Assembly: GCA_963921795.1 (NCBI GenBank)
Contig: OY997649.1
Span: 32,936,873-33,000,872, forward strand
Source: Nannobrachium achirus
Lineage: Eukaryota; Chordata; Actinopteri; Myctophiformes; Myctophidae
Length of the DNA stretch: 64,000 bases
Direction of reading: 5' to 3'
The position numbers and the translations under genes are program-made. The notes under the pieces are model-generated. The model saw only the letters and a list, made by a program, of their open reading frames with translations, was not told where the DNA came from and did no database searches. Positions within the stretch are counted from its first letter, which is position 1, and every line of letters starts with the position of its first letter. Positions 1,410 to 57,800 of the stretch are shown piece by piece.

Positions 1410-1844
1410 CAGGGGTTTTCAACGTTTTCAGGTCAAGGACCCCTTAGTAGAGCGAGAGATGAAGCAGGGACGCCCACAACCTGTACATAGATTCCATATC
1501 TAATCGTTTGACAGCACAATCATCAGTGTATTTTGGATTCATGTCAGTTTGTGTTTTCAGATATTTAACCACTGTCTGTACTTAATAAACTTGACCTTTC
1601 ACTCTGTACTTCTGTCTGCTCCAAACACCAAACCTCTTTGCCGAAAATAGCCGATCTACAAGCTCACAACACCTCACGCTGCGAGGCATTGTGAGCTTGT
1701 AGATCTGCTATTTTTGGCTAAAGTTCTCAGAATTCGGACGCTAGGGTTCAAGTGGTCAATATAAAAAAGGAGGGAAAAAGTTTCTATCACTCAACGATTT
1801 GGAGGACCCCCTAGGGGTCCCGGACCCCCTGTTGAAGACCCCTG
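1410..1844 (+). mobile_element. hAT MITE, family A (CAGGGG...CCCCTG), in gna14 3' UTR
   Basis: Terminal repeats CAGGGGTTTTCAAC and GTTGAAGACCCCTG. The 8-bp flanks are atttaaac and gtttaaac (7 of 8 match). The centre (1640-1720) is a long hairpin with the recurrent CTACAAGCTCACAA arm. Near-identical sequence recurs at 4049-4495 and in fragments at 17841, 42470, 50279 and 56297. Confidence 0.85.
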
Positions 1845-2379
1845 GTTTAAACATAAGAATGATTTCAAGTCCTTTCTTAGTGTGTTCTTTAACAAGCAGA
1901 CCAAAACTATTGATTCTCTGTACAGGTTGCTTTGTTTGATAGAAGTCCCTAGATCTGGTCTGTATGTTCTTTGAACTTAACTGTGTCATGACAAACATAT
2001 AGTGAGAAGGAATCGTTTCATATACTACTCTAAGACAATGTTATTTATGTCAATGATGCACCTTCCAGTTTACATAACTTATTTACTGTATCATATAACT
2101 ATGGTGTGTTACTATTTTATCTATATTTTTTTATGACATTTGAGAATTGGTAGTTTTCTTATTTTTTTTTCTTTTCATATTTGATTATGTGTAGAAAATG
2201 TATCCAAGCCATGTGTACGAATAACCGAAGACAAAATTATTTTTAACTCATTATTTTAGCTGTAAATAGAAAATCGTACCGTTTTGCTATTGAAAAAGCT
2301 CTAGTTGCTTCCTAACGTTGGGGGTTCATTTCCCCCCTGTTTGAATTGTCTATGCTGTATTAAATGTATATTAGATTTC

Positions 2380-54800: not shown

Positions 54801-57800
54801 GAAGGATTTAGAAGACATTTATAGAATCGGGTCAAAAATATTCAAAGACTAATGTTCACGATTTTTCAAAAATAGCAGATCTACAAGCTCATATCTACAA
54901 GCTCAATCTACAAATTTTTCAACAGTTAAAGCATAAAATAATGGTTAAAGTAATAATGCGCAATAATGCGTACCCGGTCTAAATGGCTTATTAAAGAGAA
55001 CGTACTTGTTGGCTTGTGCTCCAGGTCTCTGCGTGAGAATGGACTTGAGCTCTCCAACAGTCAACTTGATGATCTCATTCTGGTCCTTGTTGTTGTCTTT
55101 GAAGGACACAGAAAGCTTTTCCATGTGGAAATCAATCTTCATGTCCTCAAACTGAAAAAGGAAAAAAGAAAAGAACAGAGAAAGATATTGAATATGGGAT
55201 TGATGTTGATAATGTCATGATGACATGACAATGACATTGTGTGGTCTCAAACACATTCACGGAGGGCAGAAACTCACATCCTTTGGCAGGTTGTGATTAA
55301 CAGCGGCCTCGCTATATCCAATGGCAGTGTAAAGCTTGGCCTTCTCAGCTGGGGTCATAAAGTCATCAAAACCTTAGGTGAGGGAGCAAATTAAATTGAA
55401 ACACATGATGGGAGTTTTTGAACTGATGAACATGAACACACAGTATGTAGCCTAAGCCTAGTTGCTTCCCAGTATATAACCATCAATTCTGTCATTTTAG
55501 ATTTTAGCATTGGCTATTCAAAAATAGCTGGTATACAAGCTCACAGTGTGTCACTTTTGTAAGCTTGTAAATCTGTTATTTTAGTTTTTGAAGTTTTTTA
55601 CACAAAACACCGATGGGGGAGGGGAGGCAAATAAATGTATCAATTTATTTGGGGGTCCTTAGCACGAAAAAGTTTGAGAACTACAGATTTCAAAGGCATT
55701 TTGTAGACTTGGCCACAGGTCTTAATGGGTCATATAGCCTACCACCAGTTTTGACTTCTTTAGGCTGTGCATCAGGTTCTCCTCCCCAGTTCCACATCCA
55801 TCCGAACCAGCCCTGCGACTCCTCTTCCTCCATCTTCACTCCAGGACGGTAGATACGCAGGCCCGCCTTGCTCGCCTGGGAAAGAACAACACATAAGCCA
55901 TTTAGAGTGGTGCTTCATCTCTGTCCTGGTTGGACAACAGATAGGAGAAGACAAAGAAAGAATCTGTCACTAGCTACAACCAGAGGTTAAAGGAATAGTT
56001 TATCAAGGTGTGTGTAATCGATAGAAAATAAGCCCTTTCTGAGTGATTTACTCCTTTAACTGTGATCTTTGTCAAGTGGTTTGAACACTGACTGATCTGT
56101 GGTCACTGGTCAGCCTACCAGAGGCAGAAGCCTTGAAGTTGTCTTTTATCGCACACTTTTGCACAGGTTTAAACTTTGACATAAATTGATTACAAATACC
56201 TCCATCTCAGCCTGCTGCCTGGCCAGTGTGATGTTAAATATATCCAGCGTCTTCTCAGGCTCCTGGGTAAAGACAGAGGAAACACATTGATTAGACCAGG
56301 GGTCTTCAACATTTTCAGGCTAAGGACCCCTTAGTTGAGAGAGAGATGAAGCAGGGACCCCCACAACCTTTTCAGAGATTCCATGTAGTTTAATCGTTTG
56401 ACAGCACAATCATTGTGTATTTTGGATTCATGTCAATTTGTGTTTTCAGATATTTAACTTAACCACTTGAGCCGTCAATACTTAATAAACTTGACCTCTC
56501 ACACAAAGATTTGGAGGACCCCCTGTAGTAACTCTGAGGACCCTTTAGTCTTGACCCATAAAAATCGTGTGTCCAACATTTGGGAACCAGAGCCCTACAC
56601 CCCAACCCTCTTGCTTCTGCTCCTCATCCCGGCCTCACCTCCAGCTCTCTGAGCAGCTCCTCAGTGGGTTTCTTGCTGGTGATCTTCTCCTTGTAGAGCT
56701 CTCGGTAGCGTTTCACCGTCTGCCGGTGCCGGCGGATGTGCTGCCACGACCACATGTGAAGGCGGGGCTTCACATCCACCTCCATGATGCCTGTGATCAC
56801 GTACCGCCACCTGCAGGGGAGTCACAAACATGCCATGACAGCCAGCAATATTCATTATGAATTAATCCACGTCCAATGTTTGGTACCAAACATGAGGAGT
56901 ATTAGATAGGTTAAGGATGGATGTTTTCTGACCATATGGGTGCATTGTGGTGAACGTGGACCTCTGGCCTGTATTTCCTGAACGGTAGGTTACGGGTCAT
57001 CATATCCACTGAGCCCAGCAGCTCCAGAATGCTGATATACTGCAAGGAGGGAGGGCATAGGTCATCAGTTACTTACAGTACCGAGATGAAATCTCTAGGT
57101 TCTCTAGAGGTTTTCCTGTTTCTCAATTTTGTGACATTTACGTCACTGTATGTAGCCTAAGCCTTCACACACATGCATTCACATGTGAACATACATACAA
57201 TCACACAAATGCCTACCTGTGGTCTATTGAGCTCAATGGCCACCTCTTGGAGATTGACTACCAGGTCCACCTTAGGAGAGGAGAAATCTACATCCGACCT
57301 TGGATTCATCCGGAGTTTAGCGTCCGCTGTAATCGGACGAAATACTGTGGAACAACAACAAGAAAAGTGATGTGAGGCCAAAGGATAAAGTAGACTGTAA
57401 TAGCCTGGAAAACAAACAAATCTGTGCACACAGAGCCAATCTATAAGATTCCGGACTAATAGCTACGCTGTGATATTGAGTGGGTGAGTAGAGTAAGAAT
57501 TATGCGTTTCATTTCACAATGTGTGGCTTTTTCTGATTGCTAAAATCCTGTTCACCCAGTTAACAGTACCTGGCATGCACATCACTCACACTATGTAAGC
57601 CCAGAGGTATACAATATAACTCTTTCTGAGTTGATGTGCCGGTTCTAAGGACTGGTTGACAATGAGACACTCACTGAAGTCATGACTGGTGTGTACAGAG
57701 CTGTGGATCTCCATGCTGCTCTTGAGACATTGCTGTGAAACCAAGGACACAGAAAGAGATGGTTAAATGTGCACTTCTACGGATAAAGAGAAGCAGAGAG

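Follow-up and report, generated by a model that had tools for sequence, protein, structure and literature searches.

The window analysed here, 64 kb in all, is the stretch 32936873-33000872 of contig OY997649.1, from an assembly of 1.6585 Gb in 564 contigs. It holds a Kelch-repeat reading frame at 39001-40134 (PF24681, E 3e-85), a VPS13_N-like exon at 58674-59000 (E 5e-17, under the curated cut-off) and a separate long palindrome at 13632-14286, a 296-nt inverted repeat that is 97% complementary around a 63-nt spacer. The feature followed here is a hairpin that recurs inside transposable elements. We located it with an arm scan using the 27-nt query AAAATAGCAGATCTACAAGCTCACAAC, with a covariance model (R1, run with filters off and partly trained on ten of these window copies) and with DNA folding. 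The copies and their host elements are given below; hairpins carry no strand, TSD denotes the target duplication and TIR the terminal inverted repeat.

1410..1844, plus strand: host A, a non-autonomous element of hAT type, TSD ATTTAAAC/GTTTAAAC, TIR CAGGGGTYTTCAAC (13/14)
1644..1714: hairpin in host A, arms 26/27 and 26/27
3936..4006: hairpin, host C-like by eye, arms 25 and 19 of 27, the right one decayed
4049..4496, minus strand: host A, copy 2
4201..4271: hairpin in host A (arm scan, R1, fold)
5870..6405, plus strand: host B, hAT-type, TSD TTGTAGGA twice, TIR CAGTGGTYCTCAAC (13/14)
5994..6034, plus strand: duplicated left arm in host B (arm scan)
6100..6170: hairpin in host B (arm scan, R1)
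10096..10122, minus strand: lone degenerate arm, 21/27, inside the TTAA-flanked element 9855-10274
17839..17909: hairpin adjoining a one-sided host A copy that reaches about 18136 (arm scan, R1)
22206..22247: truncated hairpin with a single good arm (arm scan, R1)
25982..26402, minus strand: host B, copy 2
26236..26306: hairpin in host B, DNA fold -43.8 kcal/mol, z -15
27676..27747: hairpin in host K, with the identical 72 letters at L068:398-469 of the genome sample
30301..30327, plus strand: lone degenerate arm, 20/27
30809..31226, minus strand: host B, copy 3
31049..31109: hairpin in host B with a stem deletion close to the loop (arm scan, R1)
42461..42748, plus strand: host A, truncated, left arm only (42710-42736)
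43752..43803: hairpin with a C-type flank on either side (arm scan, R1, flank clusters)
50263..50531, plus strand: host A copy lacking the hairpin, read as a deletion
53078..53148: decayed hairpin (arm scan, R1, fold)
54582..54644: hairpin in host C, hAT-like end GAACCACTG at 54795
54869..54909, plus strand: single arm with tandem arm fragments (arm scan)
55521..55582: decayed hairpin, C-like host by eye (arm scan, R1)

A sequence-only reading had placed the hairpin at 15 sites of the window. At 12 of them the scan found two arms at 19/27 or better, and the remaining three (22206, 42709 and 54868) have a single good arm (25, 26 and 25 of 27) whose partner is truncated or missing. In 40 resamples of the window under a second-order Markov model, no arm reached 20/27. 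In its window search R1 recovered 12 of the 15 sites at E<=3e-10 on the better strand, gave weak matches at 54857-54929 (E=0.0014) and 22206 (E=0.003), and did not find 42709. Since R1 also picked two unrelated short palindromes, 59587 (59596-59649) and 9570 (9580-9631), at E values of 0.0003-0.0005, the two weak values prove little alone. As folded DNA, six of eight window copies reached z scores from -7.4 to -15, and the copies at 53.1 kb (z -1.9) and 55.5 kb (z -3.0) are decayed. In host B at 5870..6405, an exact 106-bp tandem duplication (5927-6140) ends inside the hairpin.

Degenerate arms had also been suspected at three further places. Those at 10.1 kb (21/27) and 30.3 kb (20/27) stand above chance, with one arm each, and that at 7.94 kb (17/27) lies at chance level, so a PIF-like copy at 7.9 kb was dropped. 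In the window at E<=1, R1 lists neither the 7.9-kb nor the 10.1-kb arm and gives the 30.3-kb arm a value of 0.87. The TTAA-flanked element 9855-10274, with a TIR of about AAAGGAGAATTCTGTT, is the sole TTAA host seen, and what it carries is the one-armed 10.1-kb copy.

The hairpin is abundant throughout the genome. The 20-mer GCAGATCTACAAGCTCACAA from the arm occurs exactly 50,208 times (25,166 + 25,042) in 1.66 Gb, its reversed control does not occur in the genome at all, and 18,482 loci hold two intact 17-letter cores that face each other 5-35 bases apart. Because the window contains 2 exact 20-mers, and the genome on average 1.94 per 64 kb, it looks typical in its hairpin load. The window has 28 arms of at least 20/27, and 180,364 sampled bases lying apart from any exact hit have 44 (15.6 per 64 kb); as a rough extrapolation, an estimate and not a count, the genome would hold some 0.4-0.7 million arms. 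For comparison between copies we joined the window to sampled stretches, all from one contig (C1). Each stretch was chosen for an exact 20-mer, so well-kept arms are favoured and core conservation is inflated. Leaving out eight loci of the initial 20-mer genome scan, sample and window together cover 329,690 bases with 265 arms at 19/27 or better and 88 two-armed hairpins. The exact hairpin pattern had no match in IMG/VR, and a literature search by topic, not with the hairpin sequence, brought up no description of it.

The near-flanks of the 88 hairpins fall into 27 clusters with at least two sides, plus one one-sided pair, which in our own naming make up about 14 host families: A, B, C, C2, E, H, I, K, M, N, P, Q, X and an AC-rich palindrome. 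The hAT-end test, which required an 8-bp TSD with at most one mismatch and a CAG/TAG TIR of at least 10/14 and to which the ends of other superfamilies are invisible, was passed by 8 of 88 hairpin elements and by 10 of 300 random centres, among which there may be genuine elements. One pass, L021:7125, is probably spurious. The seven credible elements of the 88, having the 8-bp TSD and CAG/TAG TIR, are non-autonomous elements of hAT type. They span five host types, namely A, B, C-like (L037), P (L017) and Q (L028), with a TIR identity of 12-14 of 14, the CAG/TAG start being required by the test. The other 80 elements received no hAT call, in part because many of the loci, at only 0.9 kb, are too short to include both ends. 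By eye, hosts A and B are alike over their first 35 letters. The host termini had been described as different; CAGGGG (A) and CAGTGG (B) are, by eye, related hAT-type ends, and one host with TAGGG is of hAT type too.

Several observations in the sample concern the hosts themselves. At L014:1001-2639 lie broken reading frames, two of three with weak matches to DUF4371, which we take to be a domain of hAT-like transposases. In family E (L016, L018, L020, L025 and L052), the hairpin and about 40-115 bp of flank are, by eye, common to two hosts with different ends, and at L020 these flanks form an outer inverted repeat; for both reasons a larger core may be nested in this family. A tandem repeat of about 30 bp (GGTCCCTGGAACAACATGT...) at L020:3424-4048 and L011:5819-5960 resembles the interior of host C. 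At L034:1379-1612 and L035:1447-1643, paired facing hairpins sit within a larger palindrome that contains AC repeats and is rich in TAGC at its centre.

We then compared the flank consensuses of the families. Homology at z>4 (60 shuffles each) was found for 7 of 325 between-family pairs, namely P-X, A-P on both sides, A-X, C-C2, B-N and I-H, A and P being a pair that BLAST had connected beforehand. Because this near-flank homology extends beyond the hairpin, the host families, as judged from their flanks, form clans. The sequence-only reading had called the host families unrelated. This does not hold, since the five host types with defined ends are all of hAT type (the only ends sought) and near-flanks link A-P-X, C-C2, B-N and I-H. 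Its central observation was borne out: one module is present across many families, beyond chance, with arm changes on both sides. It had also named what would speak against it, that all carriers descend from one ancestral transposon with no extra conservation of the arms. Here the relatedness within clans is real, but the arms are near-identical where flanks between families cannot be aligned.

Four of the 88 hairpins seem to join the flanks of two families. The mixture is well supported for C with A at L062:1231 and for A with P at L015:4961, and rests on shorter similarity for X with B at L054:375 and for A with an N-like flank at L043:407. From these four, together with the window hairpin at 43752, whose two sides carry one and the same C-type flank, the hairpin seems also to be a junction for exchange, either before amplification or through later deletion between neighbours.

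The whole palindrome measures about 85 bp and consists of about seven outer pairs with family-specific letters, 27 shared pairs and a short GC-rich loop stem. In 35 hairpins, 84.3% of stem cells are paired, compared with 33-43% when the arms are slid against each other and 78.4% when they are shuffled, and covariation reaches 0.181 against 0.094 in shuffles (0 of 500 as high), statistics that are inflated by family relatedness. Two of five pairing measures (pair or type counts) are weaker, being equalled by 17 and 44 of 500 shuffles. Taken position by position in 87 hairpins, clear extra agreement between arms is confined to positions 1, 5, 18, 21, 26 and 27, and at most positions the arms vary independently. 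The agreeing positions are mostly family marks; position 1, for example, marks N, positions 5 and 21 mark E, position 18 marks B and position 26 marks C. A co-variation that had been noted between CAAGCTC and CATGCTC is right for family B, seen at 26.2 and 31.1 kb and, with an extra change on each arm, at 6.1 kb. Discordant pairs at position 18 number 346 in the genome (183 + 163) against 18,482 unchanged A/A, a figure that alone is no measure of covariation.

Position 9 behaves otherwise. The arms differ there (A/C or A/T) in 48 of 87 hairpins and are A/A in 34, and the copy with one C-arm and one A-arm is present in A, I, N, X, Q, E, B and M. As this difference was kept while positions 1, 5, 18, 21 and 26 changed on both arms, the pattern argues that both arms travelled together and that whole-arm copying has been rare since.

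Matching extends outside the shared arms: over positions -1 to -7, 12 of 15 flank groups agree at 3.3-6.0 of 7, and the other three, K and the two AC palindromes, reach at most 1.5. The group mean of matching is 0.46 at -7, 0.40 at -8 and 0.23 at -9; in E, M and P the matching continues past -8 (3.2-4.0 of 7 at -8 to -14). The flanks match as inverted repeats. Judged from these alignments, stem pairing looks to have been kept by founder changes on both arms, including the roughly seven family-specific outer pairs, and the founding elements look to have kept the folded shape more than the outer letters. Founder-level double changes are few, because the two arms are independent at most positions, and they could be chance template-switch events.

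Such an architecture could also arise if the hairpin moved by itself, entering other elements, perhaps at palindrome tips, and leaving inverted target copies of about 7 bp. The abrupt edge at AAAATAG, where the shared sequence gives way, and the family-specific inverted flanks of like length agree with this, as does the C/A mark at position 9, where both arms would have moved together. We therefore queried the genome for hosts A, I and B without the hairpin and read the matches that crossed the junction, all 16 for A, 20 of the 21 for I and 12 of the 22 for B. Such a query favours short copies, and the counts are not frequencies of loss. Exact arm words of at least 9 nt were left in 8 of 16 A, 16 of 20 I and 4 of 12 B copies, 28 of 48 in total, compared with arm words of at most 6 (A), 8 (I) and 6 (B) nt in the host references alone.

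By eye, 26 of these 48 short copies are clear partial hairpins (A 9, I 11, B 6). Six, all from I, have the form GGCTATTTTCAAAC, as a deletion between two GGCTATTT repeats (an 8-nt direct repeat) gives; these account for 6 of the 16 host I copies with arm words of at least 9 nt. Four, all from B, are imperfect remnants, and in 12 no remnant is clear (A 7, I 3, B 2). The form AAAATAGCACAAT recurs in three of the 12 host B copies, in one of them with a letter altered, and nearly so in a fourth. Where copies agree in their junction, they have no class-wide flank variant except the junction base in I, and single variants are shared by pairs. Because the short copies of A, I and B are mostly partial hairpins or deletion-like junctions and do not present one clean empty site, the hairpin was probably in the founders of these three hosts and later lost by deletion, B being the weakest case. 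We read this deletion pattern as that expected of palindromes.

The recurring short forms (6 of 20 in I; 3 and the near one of 12 in B) could instead be read as empty sites, and they speak for self-mobility along with a few clean-looking short copies (L080, L096). Against it stand the arm words of at least 9 nt that persist in 28 of the 48 short copies, and flank homology within clans, which makes the outer arms look inherited; no direct target duplication was seen. A fixed-pattern search for palindromic empty sites returned none with host sequence flanking, by eye, and own terminal repeats with a direct target duplication were not found around the hairpin. On the empty-site test of three host families, the hairpin is not a free MITE. 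The idea of a nested MITE that is still moving, advanced in the sequence-only reading, thus finds no target duplication and mostly deletion-like short copies, and we consider a self-mobile hairpin unlikely.

We next examined how dead copies decay. In family B, changes number 24/312 in the arms and 43/593 in the flanks (6 copies, 5 of them not picked by the 20-mer), and no extra constraint was seen in these six copies, whose arms decay at the flank rate. The 17-letter core changed less than the flanks in family A (5/297 against 62/1061, p 0.002) and in family I (3/132 against 30/455, p 0.08), both in samples picked by the 20-mer. With B arms and flanks decaying alike, and the excess in A and I biased by sampling, whatever keeps the stem seems to act on multiplying elements and not on dead copies.

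The decay in family B also bears on a structured RNA or small-RNA precursor carried by the transposons. Such an RNA would suit the long stem, whose base varies yet stays paired and whose middle is conserved. The absence of constraint in dead B copies speaks against it, and the window gave no Rfam family at gathering score, so that this suggestion of the earlier reading now appears very improbable.

The centre of the loop was found in both orientations in hosts A and B. Among 13 full-length copies of host A, two of them chimera candidates, it reads GCT in 3, AGC/AGT in 8 and otherwise in 2; among 4 copies of host B, AAC was read twice, GTT once and another sequence once. Passages of PMC8604942 and PMC8794818 describe template switching at inverted repeats, by which arms are homogenised and spacers inverted. 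This forms the basis of the main rival, a neutral one, which ranks a little below the reading with selection: the hairpin would hitch-hike by descent in hAT families, and template switching during replication alone would keep the arms alike and flip the loop, with no function. We regard it as a serious possibility, though less probable than selection. The flipped loops in A and B, the known action of template switching and the unconstrained dead B copies are all in its favour. It accounts less well for the difference at position 9, which persists in many families despite changes on both arms to either side (yet A/A occurs in 34 of 87), or for outer matching that ends near -7 or -8 in most groups. 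Moreover, near-identical arms next to flanks that cannot be aligned between families need recent spread or selection.

We tentatively favour, at somewhat less than even confidence, the reading in which the hairpin is an inherited and exchanged structural core of a swarm of non-autonomous hAT elements, whose folded form, we infer, was selected in the multiplying lineages. What was observed is its fixed place within families A, B and I, both loop orientations, many short copies that look like deletions and, at some sites, junctions of two families. The hairpin would already have been in the founders of these hAT families and would have passed from lineage to lineage through common descent and through exchange within the arms they share. 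The multiplying founders may have stayed paired because folded DNA (or RNA) aided transposition, where the folded form could bring the element ends together or hold a host protein. A stronger version makes the folded DNA hairpin a transposition signal that many hAT families of a single genome have in common and can interchange, with pairing selected, the outer seven pairs free in their letters and element halves exchanged through the hairpin; this we hold to be rather doubtful. If pairing is selected, the hairpin would be a rare cis signal of DNA transposons that is recognised by shape, with thousands of natural variants for testing. Even if it is neutral, about one intact two-armed core per 90 kb (18,482 in 1.66 Gb) makes a strong natural record of how palindromes are lost, how spacers flip and how exchange occurs between transposon families.

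Among known systems, the Angel elements of zebrafish are short, hairpin-forming and very abundant in fish. The hairpin described here differs in lying inside larger elements, with no target duplication of its own seen, a distinction drawn by description and not by sequence. Tol2, a fish hAT, has internal inverted repeats and so resembles the present hosts in carrying an internal palindrome; the likeness is again one of description, not of sequence or of sharing among families. Template-switch mutation at inverted repeats, in the passages of PMC8604942 and PMC8794818, likewise homogenises arms and inverts spacers, but by itself it does not explain the kept difference at position 9 or the spread between families. 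There is also a likeness to the non-autonomous hAT elements (MITEs) of teleosts, which, like the five host types here, have an 8-bp TSD and CAG/TAG termini and measure from several hundred bp to 1.3 kb; passages of PMC12368964 describe cod hAT MITEs with internal inverted repeats. Compared with these, the present case is distinguished by one near-identical internal hairpin that is common to many families with different ends.
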